A stretch of DNA of 64,000 nt, from positions 248,001 through 312,000 of the forward strand of contig NZ_JALHLG010000005.1 of the NCBI RefSeq assembly GCF_022832375.1. Direction: 5' to 3'. The notes below the pieces were generated by a model. That model saw nothing but the letters and a program-made list of their open reading frames with translations. It did not search any database and was not told where the DNA came from. This stretch comes from Novosphingobium beihaiense. Lineage in GTDB: Bacteria > Pseudomonadota > Alphaproteobacteria > Sphingomonadales > Sphingomonadaceae. Of the stretch, positions 8,629-35,975 are shown in pieces. Numbering within the stretch: the stretch's first letter is position 1; the number at the start of each line of letters is the position of its first letter. The translations under genes were made by a program, and so were the position numbers.

Positions 8629-10443
8629 ATGTCAGACGAATCTCCCGCAGACCGCTTCAAGTCGGTGTTAACAGGCGCCAGCCGCGCCATTGCTCACGAC
8701 AATGAGATCGAGGTCAACTGGACGGCCGATGCCCCCAGCGCGTCCGGCAATGTCTTTCGCGTGCCGATGCCGGGGCGCAGCCTGCCGCGCGGGGCGGCAA
8801 TGCAGGCACGCGGCTTTGCCGACAGCTTCGCGCTCAAGGCGCGTCATCACAACGACACGCTGCACATGCGCCACGCGCCGTCCGAACCTTCGGCGCGGGC
8901 GTGCTACGATGCGGTGGAAATGGTCCGCTACGAGGCCTTGGGGTCCAACGCCTATCCGGGGATGCGGGACAATCTCGATGCGGCGCTGATGGCGCGCATC
9001 GGTTCCGATCCGATTGCCCGAGCAGAGGCGCCCGATGCGGTGCCGGTGCAGTCCGCCCTCGCGCTGCTGCTGCGCGAACGGCTGACCGGGCAGCCGGTCC
9101 CGGCCGAGGCGCAGGCGGGCGTCGATATGGTCCGCTCGTGGATCGAGGATAAGGCAGGCGCCGATTTCGAAGCACTGGCCTCCTCGCTGGAGGACCAGAA
9201 GGCGTTTCAGGATCTCACGCTCGACATGCTGGAGCATCTCGAACTGACCCGCGCCGAAGACGTCCAGCAGGAGCCCGATCAGGCCGACGACATGGACGGC
9301 GACGAGGAGACCGAGGAAGAGCAGGACGGCGACGAATCCGGCAAGGAGCAGCAGCCGTCCGAAATGGCCGCCGAACCCTCGCAGGGCGAGGATGAGGGCG
9401 AAAGCGAATCCGAAGGCGAATCTTCCGACGACATGGAGGAAGGCCAGGAAGGCGAAGAGGGTGAGGAGGGCATGATGCCGGTGCGCCCCAACCGCCCGTG
9501 GACCGATATTCCCGAAGGCTTCGACTACAAAATCTTCACCGAGGCGTTCGACGAAGTGGTGGGCGCCGCCGACTTGTGCGACGAGGAAGAGCTGACGCGG
9601 CTGCGCGCTTACCTCGATGCGCAGCTTAAGGGCTTGCAGGGTATCGTCACCCGTCTGGCCAACCGGTTGCAGCGCCGCCTGATGGCGCAGCAGAGCCGCT
9701 CGTGGGATTTCGATCAGGAAGAAGGCTTGCTCGATGCCGCGCGGCTGGCGCGCGTGGTGGTCTCGCCCGGCCAGTCGCTGTCCTACAAGGTGGAGCGCGA
9801 CGTCGAGTTCAAGGATACGGTGGTCACGCTGCTGCTCGACAATTCGGGCTCGATGCGCGGGCGGCCGATCTCGATCGCGGCGATCAGCGCCGATGTGCTG
9901 GCGCGCACGCTGGAGCGCTGCGGCGTGAAAGTGGAGATTCTCGGTTTCACCACCCGCGCGTGGAAGGGCGGGCAGAGCCGCGAGACTTGGCTTTCCAGCG
10001 GCAAGCCGCAGCATCCCGGACGCCTCAACGACTTGCGCCATATCGTCTATAAGCAGGCCGACGAGCCCTGGCGCCGCGCGCGCAAGAACCTTGGCCTGAT
10101 GATGCGCGAGGGGCTGCTGAAGGAAAACATCGACGGCGAGGCGCTGCTCTGGGCGCATAACCGCCTGCTCGCCCGGCCCGAGGACCGGCGCATCCTGATG
10201 GTCATTTCCGACGGCGCGCCGGTGGACGATTCGACGCTTTCGGTGAACTCGGCCGGATATCTCGAAGCGCACTTGCGCCGGGTGATCGACTGGATCGAGG
10301 GCAAGAGCCCGGTTCAGCTCGTCGCCATCGGCATCGGCCATGACGTGACGCGTTACTATCGCCGCGCGGTGACGATCATGGACGCCGAGCAGCTCGGCGG
10401 CACGATGATCGAGCAGCTTGCCGGTCTGTTCGAGGAAGAGTGA
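8629..10443 (+). CDS. cobT: Cobaltochelatase subunit CobT
   Basis: CobT is the VWA-containing partner of the AAA+ protein CobS; together they drive ATP-dependent cobalt insertion by CobN in aerobic cobalamin synthesis. The 604-residue product starts [20 protein letters not shown]. It has the helical CobT N-terminal domain to about 215, a long acidic linker (about 218-285, mostly Glu/Asp/Ser), then the C-terminal VWA domain with the MIDAS motif [13 protein letters not shown] at about 402-414. It ends in [12 protein letters not shown]. The ATG is 192 bases after fsa, behind a REP cluster. The stop overlaps the GTG of the next gene by four bases. Its usual neighbour cobS is absent here. Confidence 0.93.
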
Positions 10444-11345
10444 CCTCCGGCTACCTCTGGGTGCCGTTCACGCTCCTGGCCGCCTTCGCGCAGGTCTTGC
10501 GCAATGCGTTCCAGTCACGGCTGACGGCGCGGATCGGCACTGTCGGCGGAACGCAAGTGCGCTTCGTCTATGGTCTGCCGTTCGCCGCGCTGCTCTTCGC
10601 GGGCTATCTCGCGGTGGTTCCGGCGCATGTTCCGGCAATTCCGGCAGACGCGCTGGCCTGGGCGGCCGGTGGCGCATTGAGCCAGATCGGGGCGACGGCA
10701 CTGATGCTGCTGGTCATGGCCAAGCGCGATTTCGGCGTGGCCTATGCCTATATCAAGACCGAGCCGGTGACCGTGGCGCTGCTCGGCCTCGTCCTGATCG
10801 GAGACCGGCTATCGTGGGCGGGCTGGCTGGCGGTGGTGATCGTGACTGTGGGCGTGGTGATGGCCTCGCTCAAGGCGGGCGACAAGACCTCGGCGCTGGC
10901 CGAGTGGAAGCCGATGGCCGTGGGTATTGCCAGCGGCGCGCTGTTCGGGCTGGCCGCGATCTGTTTTCGCGCTTCGATAGAGGCGGTGCCGCAGGGCACT
11001 TTCATGATGCGCGGGCTGACGATGCTGGTGATCTCCATGGCGATCCAGACGGCGACGCTGGCCACGTGGTTCGTGGTGAAGGACTCGTCCGGGTTTTCCG
11101 GTTCGTTGCGCGAATGGCGCCTCAGCGTGCCGGCGGGCGTGCTCGGGGCGATATCCTCGACGGGATGGTTCCTCGCCTTTTCGCTGACGCTGGCGGCCAA
11201 TGTGCGCACGCTGGCGCTGGTGGAAATGCCCGTTGTCGCGCTGGTCTCGCGCTATGTTTCGGGCCAGTGGCTCTCGGCGCGCGAATGGCTGGGACTTGCG
11301 TTGATTACCTTCGGTGTGGCGCTGCTGATGGTGGCGCACGCTTGA
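10440..11345 (+). CDS. EamA/DMT-superfamily transporter
   Basis: Predicted inner-membrane transporter of the drug/metabolite superfamily; the substrate cannot be told. The 301-residue product is almost entirely hydrophobic, with about ten membrane segments in two EamA repeats (for example [20 protein letters not shown] and, near the C-terminus, [20 protein letters not shown]). The start is a GTG at 10440 that overlaps the cobT TGA (GTGA), which suggests translational coupling. Such coupling hints at, but does not prove, a role linked to cobT; these carriers often sit beside unrelated genes. Confidence 0.85.
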
Positions 11346-30550: not shown

Positions 30551-32230
<1,680 letters not shown>

Positions 32231-32417
32231 CGGGTTCCTCTGGATGTGATCTGGCGTGTTGGGATAGCTTGCGCGCCGCTCTACAGGGCAGGGCGGGGAT
32301 TGCCAAGGGCGGCGGAGGGAAGTCCGGCAGGGTTATGACACTAGGACCGGTTTAAGGATTCCATGATCTGTCGGCGCCATAAGGTTCGCTGGATTCCAGG
32401 GCCAGGCAGAAGAGTGC

Positions 32418-32969
32418 ATGAAGGGTATCGTTTTCACGGAATTTCTGGAGCATGTGGAGAGCGCGTTCGGTGTCGATGTGCTTGAAGACATGATCGAGAG
32501 AAGCGAGGTTCCCAGCGGCGGCGCCTATACCTCGGTCGGTACTTACGACCATGCCGAGATGGGGGCGCTGATCGCGGCATTGTCGTCGCTTACGCAGACG
32601 CCTGCTGCTGACCTCGTTCACCGCTTCGGCATTTCGCTGGGAACAGGTTTTTCCGGGAAATTCGAAAGCTTTTTCCAGGAGAAAGCTAATCTGTTCGATT
32701 TCCTGGAGAGTGTCGAAAGCCACATCCACGTGGAGGTCAAGAAGCTCTATCCCGATGCGGAGCTTCCCAGTCTTGTCATGGTTGAACGCTCACCGGAGGC
32801 TGCACGCCTGCGGTACAGGAGCCCGCGGAACCTCGACGAGCTGGCGGCAGGGCTGATCGTGTCTTCTGCCGCTTACTACAACGACAGCGTGACGGTTACT
32901 CGCGAACCTGGCGAGGACACCGATGGCCCGTTCGTGGATATCGTTGTCATCCGGCAGCCGCAGAACTGA
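32418..32969 (+). CDS. H-NOX haem-based gas sensor
   Basis: Stand-alone H-NOX (haem NO/O2-binding) protein, 183 residues, the usual size. It starts MKGIVFTEFLEHVESAFGVD. The proximal haem His is about residue 104 in HIHVEVKKLYPDAELP, and the YxSxR motif that holds the haem propionates is at about 133-137 (YRSPR). It lies 16 bases upstream of a GGDEF-EAL gene; in Legionella and Shewanella, H-NOX binds the partner cyclase/phosphodiesterase and changes its activity when NO binds. NO sensing through c-di-GMP is therefore the likely role. Confidence 0.92.
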   Translation: MKGIVFTEFLEHVESAFGVDVLEDMIERSEVPSGGAYTSVGTYDHAEMGALIAALSSLTQTPAADLVHRFGISLGTGFSGKFESFFQEKANLFDFLESVESHIHVEVKKLYPDAELPSLVMVERSPEAARLRYRSPRNLDELAAGLIVSSAAYYNDSVTVTREPGEDTDGPFVDIVVIRQPQN

Positions 32970-32985
32970 GTCCGGGGCTGCGGGA

Positions 32986-34524
32986 ATGTCAGCGGAACAG
33001 GCCAAGCACCTGGAGCGGATGGAACGGCGGGTGGAGCGCGAACGCAAGGCGCGCAAATCCGCCGAAGATCTGCTGGAAAAGAAGAGCCTTGAGCTGTTTG
33101 CCGCCAATCAGGAATTGTCGGCCCTGAATGCGACGCTGGAAGCCCGGGTTCTGAGGCGCACCACGGAACTGGAAGCCGAGCGGGAGCGCGCCGTCGAACT
33201 GGCGGAAAAGGACTATCTGACGCAACTGGCCAATCGCTTGCTGTTTTCGCGCAAGATCGATGTGGCCGTTGAGGCGTGCCGGCGCGGAGAAGAGGTGTGT
33301 ACCCTGATCCTGGTCGATCTCGATGATTTCAAGGTGATCAACGATACCTTCGGCCACATGGCTGGAGACACTGTGCTGAAGACCATCGCGCAGCGGCTTC
33401 AAGCTCATGTGGAGGCGCCCGGCCTGGCTGCGCGCCTGGGCGGCGACGAATTCGCGGTTCTGTTGCGCGGTGAACAGGATAGTACTGCTATTGAACGGCT
33501 GGCCCGGCAGCTTGTGGAAGCCGCGCAGGCGCCAATCCCGTTCGGCGATCAGCAGTTGTTCAGCGGAGCCTCCGCAGGCATCGCCAGTTGCCCCCGCGAT
33601 GCCTCGACCGCCAAGGAGCTTTTTACCTTCGCGGACTTCGCCTTGTACGAGGCAAAGGCGAGAGGGCGGGGGCATGCCGTGTCTTTCGAAACGCGGATGG
33701 CCAGCGATTACAAGCGGCGGCGCGAACTGGGCGGAGATCTGGAGGCGGTCCTCCAGGAAAACGGAACCGATGTCTTCTTCCAGCCCATCGTCGATCTGGA
33801 GACGCGCGCGGTCTGCGGGGCCGAGGCCCTGTTGCGCTGGTGCCATCCCCGGCTGGGCTGGATAAACCCGATCGATATCCTGAGCGTGGCGAAAGACCGC
33901 AACCTGCTTTCGCACCTGACGTGCCAGATCATCAGAACCAGTCTGAAAAAGGCGGGGCCGCTGCTGCGAAGCGGCGAACTGGCATGGGTTTCCATCAACC
34001 TGGCGGATCACGATCTGCGGGACAAGCAACTGGCCGGCTTCATCCTTGCCTGTTGCAACGAAGCGGGGATCAGGCCCGATCAACTCAAGCTCGAACTGAC
34101 CGAACATACGCTTGTGGTAGACATGAGTGTCACACGCAGAGTGATGAAGCGTCTGAATGACTGGGGTGTGCAGTTCGCCGTCGACGATTTCGGAACGGGG
34201 TATTCAAACCTGCTGACGCTGAACCGTTTGCCGTTTCATACGCTCAAGATCGATCAGACGTTTGTGGCGGACTTGTTCGAAAGCGATGAATCGCAAACGA
34301 TCGTCAAGGCCATGATCGATCTGGCCCATTCGCTCAAGCTGGATGTGATCGCTGAAGGTGTAGAGACGATACAGCAAAGCGAAGTTCTGCGCGCTCTGGG
34401 GTGCGATTTCGGTCAGGGCTATCTTTTCGGCCGCCCGGACAGTCTGATCCAACCGCCCGGCCAATCTTCGTTCGAAGCAGGGGGCGGAGCCGGAAAGCGC
34501 TCCGCATCCGGGGGGCAGCTTTAA
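32986..34524 (+). CDS. GGDEF-EAL c-di-GMP enzyme, partner of H-NOX
   Basis: 512-residue cytosolic protein with an N-terminal coiled coil (about 5-75, rich in Glu/Arg/Lys), a diguanylate cyclase domain with intact GGDEF at 152-156 and a phosphodiesterase domain with EAL at 280-282, DDFGTGYSNLLTLNRLPFHT and AEGVETIQQ. Both catalytic signatures look intact. The RxxD inhibitory site expected just before GGDEF is not there. It has no membrane or PAS domain; the input is probably the H-NOX protein encoded 16 bases upstream. The frame is open further upstream, but ATG 32986 lies just after the H-NOX stop and starts the coiled coil. Confidence 0.92.
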   Translation: MSAEQAKHLERMERRVERERKARKSAEDLLEKKSLELFAANQELSALNATLEARVLRRTTELEAERERAVELAEKDYLTQLANRLLFSRKIDVAVEACRRGEEVCTLILVDLDDFKVINDTFGHMAGDTVLKTIAQRLQAHVEAPGLAARLGGDEFAVLLRGEQDSTAIERLARQLVEAAQAPIPFGDQQLFSGASAGIASCPRDASTAKELFTFADFALYEAKARGRGHAVSFETRMASDYKRRRELGGDLEAVLQENGTDVFFQPIVDLETRAVCGAEALLRWCHPRLGWINPIDILSVAKDRNLLSHLTCQIIRTSLKKAGPLLRSGELAWVSINLADHDLRDKQLAGFILACCNEAGIRPDQLKLELTEHTLVVDMSVTRRVMKRLNDWGVQFAVDDFGTGYSNLLTLNRLPFHTLKIDQTFVADLFESDESQTIVKAMIDLAHSLKLDVIAEGVETIQQSEVLRALGCDFGQGYLFGRPDSLIQPPGQSSFEAGGGAGKRSASGGQL

Positions 34525-34586
34525 CTCCCTGCCGTGTCTGCATTGCCCGTTGGCAAGCCCGCTTCTGCGCGCTACCCATCCCGTCC

Positions 34587-35975
34587 ATGGTTCGCACATC
34601 CTCCCATGCGGCGCTGCTCGCCGCCATCGCCACACTTCCCTTCACCGCCACCATGGCCACCGCTACGCCCCAGCAGGGCAGCGGGGTTGCCTGGGATATT
34701 GTCGAAGGTCTGACGACTGAGATCGGGCCGCGCATCGCCGGGTCCGATGCGGAAGCGCGGGCGCGCGCCTGGGCAGAGTCGAAGCTCAAGGCGCTGGGCT
34801 TCAGCAATGTGAAGATCGAGCCGTTTCGCACCAACGCCTGGCAGCGCGGGCCGGAACATGCGCGGCTGACGGCGCCGTACCCGCAGCCGCTGGCGATTAC
34901 CGCACTTGGCTTTTCAGTGCCCACGCCCGCCGGAGGACTGAAGGCGGAGATGGTCTATTTCCCGACGCTTGCCGCGCTGGAGGCCGTGCCGGACGGATCG
35001 CTCAAGGGCAAGATTGCATTCGTCGATCATGCCATGCGCCGCACGCAGGATGGTTCCGGCTATGGCCCATACGGCAATGTGCGGCGGAAGGGCCCCTCGA
35101 TCGCCTCGCAGAAGGGGGCGGCTGGCATCGTCATCCGCTCGGCAGGGACGGACAGCAATCGCGATCCGCATACCGGCTCCACCGTATGGGCCAAGGGCGT
35201 GACGCCGATCCCGGCAGGTGCGGTTTCCAATCCCGATGCCGACCTGATCGCCCGCATCGCGGAGCGTCAGGCCGCAGGCAAGGCAGGGCCGATGCAGATC
35301 GACATGACGCTGCTGGGCAAGCCGTTCCCCAGCGCGCCTTCGGGTAATGTCGTGGCGGAGCTTCCGGGGCGCGACCCCTCGCTGCCGATCGTGCTGGCCG
35401 CATGCCATCTCGATTCGTGGGATCTCGGCACGGGTGCGATCGACGATGCGTCTGGCTGCGGCATCATCACGGCGGCCGCACTGGCCGCGCAGAAGGGCGG
35501 CAAGCCCCTGCGCACGATCCGCGTGCTCTGGTCGGGCAATGAGGAAATGGGTATGGGCGACGGCGGCGGTGCGCACTATGCCGAAGTTCACGGCAAGGAG
35601 CCGCACGCGGTTGCGATGGAAAGCGATTTCGGCGCGGATCGCGTGTGGCAGGTGAAGAACAACTTCGCGCCTGCGGACAAGGCGCTGGCGGACAAGATCG
35701 ACGCCGCGCTCTGGCCGATGGGGATCGTTCCGCACCGCGGGCCAGTCGAAGGCGGGGCCGATGTCAGCGCGATCATCCGTCAGCAGAATCTGGCGGTGGT
35801 CGATCTCGGCCAGGACGGCACGCACTATTTCGATCTGCACCACACGCCTGACGATACGCTCGACAAGGTCGATCCGGCGGCGCTGCAGCAGAATGTCGAT
35901 GCCTGGACTAAGGTGTTCCAGGTGATCGCCAACGAGCCGGGCAAGATCGCCAAGGGCGTCAATGGCGAGGACTGA
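34587..35975 (+). CDS. Secreted M28-family zinc peptidase
   Basis: Exported aminopeptidase or carboxypeptidase of family M28 with two zinc ions. The product from ATG 34587 is 462 residues with a signal peptide (MVRTSSHAALLAAIATLPFT, cut near ATMATA). Zinc ligands and catalytic residues are visible: His and Asp in AACHLDSWDLGTGAIDDASG, Glu-Glu in SGNEEMGMG, Asp in AMESDFGADR, and the last His in FDLHHTPDDTLDKVD. A PA-domain-like insertion (about 130-230) precedes the catalytic core. The long upstream open frame has no signal sequence and overlaps the previous gene, so it was not used. Confidence 0.9.
   Translation: MVRTSSHAALLAAIATLPFTATMATATPQQGSGVAWDIVEGLTTEIGPRIAGSDAEARARAWAESKLKALGFSNVKIEPFRTNAWQRGPEHARLTAPYPQPLAITALGFSVPTPAGGLKAEMVYFPTLAALEAVPDGSLKGKIAFVDHAMRRTQDGSGYGPYGNVRRKGPSIASQKGAAGIVIRSAGTDSNRDPHTGSTVWAKGVTPIPAGAVSNPDADLIARIAERQAAGKAGPMQIDMTLLGKPFPSAPSGNVVAELPGRDPSLPIVLAACHLDSWDLGTGAIDDASGCGIITAAALAAQKGGKPLRTIRVLWSGNEEMGMGDGGGAHYAEVHGKEPHAVAMESDFGADRVWQVKNNFAPADKALADKIDAALWPMGIVPHRGPVEGGADVSAIIRQQNLAVVDLGQDGTHYFDLHHTPDDTLDKVDPAALQQNVDAWTKVFQVIANEPGKIAKGVNGED

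Follow-up and report, generated by a model that had tools for sequence, protein, structure and literature searches.

The window, a 64,000-nucleotide stretch of the Novosphingobium beihaiense genome, contains what by its sequence is an ordinary pair of an H-NOX (haem NO-binding) protein and a c-di-GMP enzyme (HaCE), a kind already known from Shewanella woodyi. The pair probably forms a two-gene NO-response module, in which H-NOX would act via an N-terminal helix of the enzyme (residues 8–44) to shift the balance between synthesis and breakdown of c-di-GMP. NO control of c-di-GMP via H-NOX binding is the likely function of the pair, by analogy with the assayed pair of S. woodyi. With this pair, an already known NO-to-c-di-GMP route gains a diverged HaCE; the newer element would be a general receiving helix. 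H-NOX proteins of the main NO-sensing clade may recognize their partners via one conserved 37-residue N-terminal helix, placed before kinases and GGDEF-EAL enzymes alike—a generalization that we regard as evenly balanced between right and wrong. The helix is proposed as the H-NOX receiving site and, as part of this reading, as the main clade's counterpart of HNOBA. The features of the pair are collected in the table.

Table. Features of the H-NOX gene and its partner gene, in positions of the window
Feature	Position	Strand	Basis
H-NOX (haem NO-binding) protein, 183 aa, zero cysteine	32418..32969	+	PF07700
IHVEV with proximal haem ligand His104	32724..32738	+	His in 134/141 aligned H-NOX rows
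YxSxR motif, residues 133–137 (Y133, S135, R137)	32814..32828	+	alignment
GGDEF-EAL enzyme (HaCE), 512 aa	32986..34524	+	PF00990, PF00563
Proposed H-NOX receiving helix ("dock", our label), 37 residues, 8–44	33007..33117	+	profile match
Signalling-helix-like segment VLRRTTELE, residues 55–63, between receiving helix and GGDEF	33148..33174	+	AlphaFold2 helix 3–74
GGDEF signature, residues 152–156; no RxxD at −9/−6	33439..33453	+	
EALLR signature of EAL domain	33823..33837	+	
DDFGTG motif of EAL domain	34183..34200	+	

The H-NOX protein matches the Pfam family HNOB (PF07700) with E 2.8e-36 and 125.3 bits against a cut-off of 25.5, covering profile positions 1–162 of 163. A sequence search of the PDB yields S. 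woodyi H-NOX (6ocv, E 7.7e-32) as the best match. The AlphaFold2 model, calculated from 32 sequences, features a pLDDT of 94.5, and the H-NOX fold is confirmed by Foldseek (best match 6bde, E 7.5e-16, TM 0.88); among the 50 matches listed, all are H-NOX or soluble guanylate cyclase. A first-pass annotation had read a proximal His and a YxSxR motif from the letters, and both are borne out as His104 and Y133-x-S135-x-R137. Pro117 is present as well, and the protein is predicted to load haem.

The enzyme was taken to start at the ATG at 32986, a start chosen by us, the mechanical ORF beginning at 32923. Both of its domains are recognized by Pfam (GGDEF E 1.4e-41, EAL E 2.6e-61), and no other domain is found ahead of GGDEF at 1e-3. 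The AlphaFold2 model (pLDDT 84.8, nine sequences, residues 488–512 below 50) features a single helix spanning residues 3–74, followed by GGDEF and then EAL, and its best Foldseek matches are the GGDEF-EAL hybrids 5m3c and 4rnh. The EAL positions that we take to be catalytic—E280, N338, E373, D400/D401, K421, E457/E460, and Q477—are all present. When 33 GGDEF-EAL proteins linked to H-NOX are aligned, two of them (L127 and L138) cut by contig ends, GGDEF and the EAL glutamate are kept in 33/33, and the residue at eight other EAL positions is kept in 31 rows, the other two being gapped. The alignment upholds the first-pass statement that both signatures are intact. The lack of an RxxD site before GGDEF, noted at the same time, also holds: positions −9/−6 are E/G, and the enzyme therefore has no I-site. 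As a distinguishing trait, this absence was rejected, because it is common among H-NOX-linked and same-genome GGDEF-EAL proteins. RxxD is missing in 31 of the 33 H-NOX-linked enzymes (L006 and L011 alone have it), and among 12 recognized GGDEF-EAL proteins of the window's genome with EAL inside the fetched stretch, it is present in 2 and absent in 10, the window's included. The genome has 29 GGDEF matches, 24 with a signature recognized by pattern and 6 of these 24 with RxxD. A tally by eye in the GGDEF loci of relatives (28 among the best matches) gives RxxD in 21/28, and in 7/14 for GGDEF-EAL proteins.

The two genes lie on the same strand with 16 nt from the H-NOX stop to the ATG of the enzyme, that is, with the GGDEF-EAL gene beside hnox as expected of a HaCE. 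A same-strand GGDEF-EAL ORF stands beside H-NOX in 33 loci including the window (at L121 with its start 633 nt away), which argues against a chance pairing. SwH-NOX/SwDGC of S. woodyi (SWOO_2751/SWOO_2750) is likewise an H-NOX with a GGDEF-EAL partner, both domains of which are described as functional (PMC8738867, PMC8846402). Synthesis by the complex is described as higher when NO is absent, and hydrolysis as higher when it is present (PMC8846402). The S. woodyi H-NOX, as found in the structure list, is 36% identical to that of the window, and the enzyme is likened by description only. Allorhizobium/Agrobacterium vitis shares the short layout, the receiving helix, and the lack of RxxD (HaCE identity 37.8–39.2%). 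In both trees the window proteins group with it (96/83, 98/95) and not with the 23-row clade of own-genus pairs. The grouping is weak because L131, from the window's genus, falls in the enzyme-tree group as well and the window branches are long (0.75 in the H-NOX tree, 3.45 in the enzyme tree). The A. vitis HaCE is used for making c-di-GMP. The own-genus pairs of the 23-row clade also consist of H-NOX and a GGDEF-EAL enzyme without RxxD, and their receiving helix is a variant; unlike the window enzyme, theirs are mostly ~680 aa long, with additional sequence separating the helix from GGDEF. In L329, a related protein that lacks an H-NOX, this additional sequence gives a GAF match. The H-NOX proteins most identical to that of the window (L013 and L050, 50.6%) have kinases, not HaCE, as partners, and the H-NOX of L005 (Rhizobiaceae) is 50.0% identical.

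The first-pass annotation saw a coiled coil as the sole input region of the enzyme. This stands insofar as one helix and no other Pfam domain precede GGDEF, but the helix includes a conserved 37-residue module and is not generic. Residues 8–44 match an N-terminal helix common to H-NOX partners of several phyla with differing outputs—kinases and GGDEF-EAL enzymes—with the pattern xIxxLxRRLxRExxARKxAExILExKSxELYxxNxxL (alignment A1, 47 sequences). R11, E20, and E24 of the alignment are invariant. Of 117 segments, 65 dissimilar ones were selected, and 47 of these make up the A1 profile. The window copy belongs to these 47 training rows and matches the profile with E 1.1e-15 and 59.9 bits, the best of 44 matches in the genus. 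In Pfam, the window helix scores best with a coiled coil (14.1 bits, cut-off 26.8) and reaches no cut-off; over all 47 members of A1, the top match is HR1 (E 1.5e-4). No PDB chain matches the helix profile at E 10. HNOBA (PF07701), with which diguanylate cyclases, kinases, and one GGDEF-EAL protein linked to H-NOX begin, differs from the N-terminal module of the window enzyme, in which it has no match at 1e-3. Following the module, segment 55–63 holds RRT, compared by eye only with the ERT signature described for the central heptad of the S-helix (PMC1592074). A search by title and abstract found no publication naming the helix; interface papers are outside that reach, so the helix is not claimed to be unpublished.

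The helix is associated with H-NOX at several levels of sampling. In the fetched H-NOX loci, on which the profile was initially both trained and tested, 114 of 986 ORFs longer than 250 aa match. Counting ORFs of any length, there are 117 matches: 113 are the next same-strand partner ORF of H-NOX, and the remaining four still neighbour an H-NOX gene, two of them where the contig ends, another in a split gene, and the last encoded on the opposite strand. The locus set omits L001, L002, and L083–L111, longer stretches of the same places being already included. The main H-NOX clade has the helix in 115 of its 119 loci, a carrier elsewhere on the contig in three, and none at L048; the other clade has it in 0/16, and the partners there begin, as judged by eye, with a different, HNOBA-like region. 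Of these 16, the one scanned (L119) gives no HNOBA match at 0.01; among relatives from the phylum sample, L352 and L356 are above the cut-off and L353 just below. The helix starts a median of 21.5 nt past the H-NOX stop in 116 of the 124 gene pairs measured. Across the genus, 44 matches occur in 40/195 genomes and 36 are adjacent to H-NOX, the matches being mostly at training loci and adjacency being taken from a comparison of the helix and HNOB tables. The eight non-adjacent ones comprise three on the same contig 8–13 kb off, one at a contig start, and four in genomes without HNOB.

A 299-genome phylum sample has the helix in 29 genomes—28 of 80 with HNOB versus 1 of 219 without (Fisher p 3.7e-17), the sample including the window's genome and perhaps other training species, and genome counts not being phylogenetically independent. 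HNOB matches in longer frames (~400–580 aa, mostly fusion-size) were left aside, and 52 of the 80 HNOB genomes give no helix match. The 32 helix matches of this sample include 24 within 400 nt of an H-NOX match, one on the same contig, and seven unlinked (the second ones of G217 and G478, and those of G440, G479, G410, G385, and G248). At 18 H-NOX sites without an adjacent carrier, 14 partners have an HNOBA-like start by eye and four begin otherwise, one with a degenerate helix. On plasmids, 10 of 19 H-NOX records were examined, and the helix is in the next open frame in 8 and absent in 2. L343 and L350, from records labelled as Persicobacter and Pseudoalteromonas plasmids, have a histidine kinase with the helix directly after H-NOX. 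As for controls, the window enzyme is the sole helix match in 57 GGDEF loci (203 ORFs longer than 250 aa), and 33 peptidase loci (192 ORFs) have zero matches. The GGDEF stretches include no more than 1.5 kb of upstream sequence, so that for long proteins the search of the window's whole genome is the better control; it yields two helix carriers only. The idea that the helix really partners FIST/NosP was rejected at genome level in the 299-genome sample. FIST occurs in 19/29 helix genomes versus 133/299 overall (p 0.019), but inside HNOB genomes the link disappears (18/28 with helix versus 34/52 without, p 1.0). Among 81 genomes with FIST but without HNOB, one (G248) has the helix, and no FIST was found among the scanned neighbours of its carrier.

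On the H-NOX side, the positions specific to the main clade were compared with a contact mapped by HDX-MS, which is described to place the kinase HnoK on helices A–C and F of H-NOX (PMC7108781). Under a strict rule—a position conserved at ≥75% in the main clade and ≤15% in the other—16/16 class-specific positions are inside residues 1–59 or 92–117. The clade-specific positions would thus fit the kinase contact segments, which lends the receiving-helix reading weak support; the position test is counted as weak because 20/30 positions under a looser rule, and also 7/11 positions conserved in both clades, are inside the same segments.

In the proposed mechanism, H-NOX would bind NO at its ferrous haem, upon which its distal and proximal subdomains would shift as described for the family. 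NO-bound H-NOX would alter its grip on helix 8–44, which in the predicted structure runs on through the signalling-helix-like segment into GGDEF. Because the helix is continuous into GGDEF in the model, an altered register or dimer geometry would be expected to shift the balance of c-di-GMP synthesis versus breakdown. By analogy with S. woodyi, NO would lower synthesis and raise breakdown, and an effect on biofilm is predicted for the window pair. If the receiving-helix reading is true, it would explain how one sensor family can drive both kinases and c-di-GMP enzymes. It would also make unlinked H-NOX partners findable by sequence, and the helix would predict partners whose genes stand apart, such as a kinase-like protein ~7.6 kb from the second H-NOX of the window's genome. 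According to section 5 of a 2022 review, there is no high-resolution structure of H-NOX with a signalling partner (PMC8738867); a short, portable receiving helix would be a minimal construct for solving such a complex.

The same NO-to-c-di-GMP pair could also work with the N-terminal helix serving only dimerization or signal relay and with H-NOX binding elsewhere, for example to GGDEF—an arrangement that is possible, if somewhat doubtful, and that accounts for the conservation of the helix by genes travelling together. The helix leads straight into the signalling-helix-like segment, as expected of a relay, and carriers without H-NOX alongside exist (L328–L338), two of them beside an MCP-CZB gene. 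A mere relay is harder to reconcile with a module that is N-terminal in partners with different outputs and close behind the H-NOX stop, with the count of two carriers in the entire genome of the window, and with the partners of other H-NOX clades, which mostly begin with an HNOBA-like region. The receiving-helix reading is preferred here. On the catalytic side, the enzyme might have a single activity in spite of its intact motifs, as a phosphodiesterase using GGDEF as a regulator or the reverse. Intact motifs are no proof of activity, and the nearest solved relatives, 5m3c and 4rnh, are GGDEF-EAL hybrids that contain bound GTP or c-di-GMP; yet the signature residues of both domains are present in the window enzyme, and SwDGC is described with functional GGDEF and EAL domains (PMC8846402), which makes a single activity rather unlikely.

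It is highly improbable that this H-NOX senses O2 or redox state and not NO. At the distal position, which we take to be five residues past the Arg of YxSxR, the window protein has Leu142 in place of the Tyr of the O2-binding subgroup, and Tyr occurs there in 0/141 aligned rows (one row a gap). A redox role has its precedent in the Caulobacter H-NOX, which is described as working via zinc-thiol oxidation, not NO, and as leaving its kinase uninhibited when NO-bound (PMC12329717). The redox subgroup is, however, defined by three zinc-ligating Cys in the description of the zinc site (PMC7108781), and the window protein has none. With a distal Leu and no Cys, both O2 sensing and zinc-thiol sensing are unlikely, and so is the O2-bound state that the first-pass annotation had proposed for assay. 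Control by NO through the receiving helix remains the reading followed here.

Within the genus, HNOB is present in 43/195 genomes and is therefore an accessory trait. The pair is flanked on its 5′ side by ettA (reverse strand, start 32230) and on its 3′ side by an M28 peptidase gene identified by Pfam (start ~34587). A peptidase search over 59 genomes returned 30 loci, 29 other than the window's own, and H-NOX is within the 1.5 kb flank of the peptidase in 0/29 loci outside the window's genome. ettA and peptidase are divergent neighbours in 16/29 loci, 126–521 nt apart between first aligned residues; the distance is 1.1–1.4 kb in 7/29, and in 6/29 there is no ettA inside the flank. In the congener whose peptidase is most similar (91%), the two genes are 2.9 kb apart and no H-NOX match lies between. 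The interval (32230–34587 in the window) varies across the genus, being short, filled by different sequence, or occupied by the H-NOX pair. Because this spot varies among relatives, the simplest reading is that the H-NOX and enzyme genes were gained or lost together, as a two-gene insertion. The flanking ettA is nearest to Sphingomonas (79.6%) within the plasmid collection. With a box pattern that we assume to be FNR/NNR-like and NO-responsive, no match with ≤2 mismatches is found between ettA and H-NOX; the whole window has 60 matches versus 41.8 expected. A scan of 32200–34700 gave no pattern resembling a promoter or terminator. A search of the genome for NO reductase gave three COX1-family matches, not distinguished from oxidases.

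Carriers of the helix also occur away from H-NOX. In G217 and G478, helix-bearing kinase-like ORFs (L333 and L334) come right after a chemoreceptor-like gene with MCP-signal and CZB (zinc-binding) domains, and the H-NOX of each genome, with its own helix partner, stands elsewhere. Given this MCP-CZB neighbour, the helix may be used by a further sensor and not be exclusive to H-NOX. Four genomes without an HNOB match (G035, G066, G073, and G081) encode helix-bearing GGDEF-EAL proteins (L329–L332), which would be orphan partners or partners of another sensor. The helix match is weak and unlinked to the genome's H-NOX in G440, G479, G410, and G385 (L335–L338; L336 is a hybrid kinase), where H-NOX neighbours a GGDEF protein with an HNOBA-like start. 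Four congeners (L152, L153, L162, and L165) have two H-NOX genes in tandem, with one helix-bearing kinase-like ORF behind them. The second H-NOX of the window's genome lies beside a sigma-54 response regulator (L154, G000:C53:1-16000, 8728–9315 and 9329–10756), amid polysaccharide genes for an export protein, a sugar transferase, and a WecG domain. On the same contig, ~7.6 kb from it, a helix-bearing protein features HisKA, receiver, and Hpt domains (L339, 6796–9000) and gives no HATPase match at 0.01. G076 and G004 have an equivalent pair of H-NOX and regulator together with a helix-bearing kinase-like protein on the contig.
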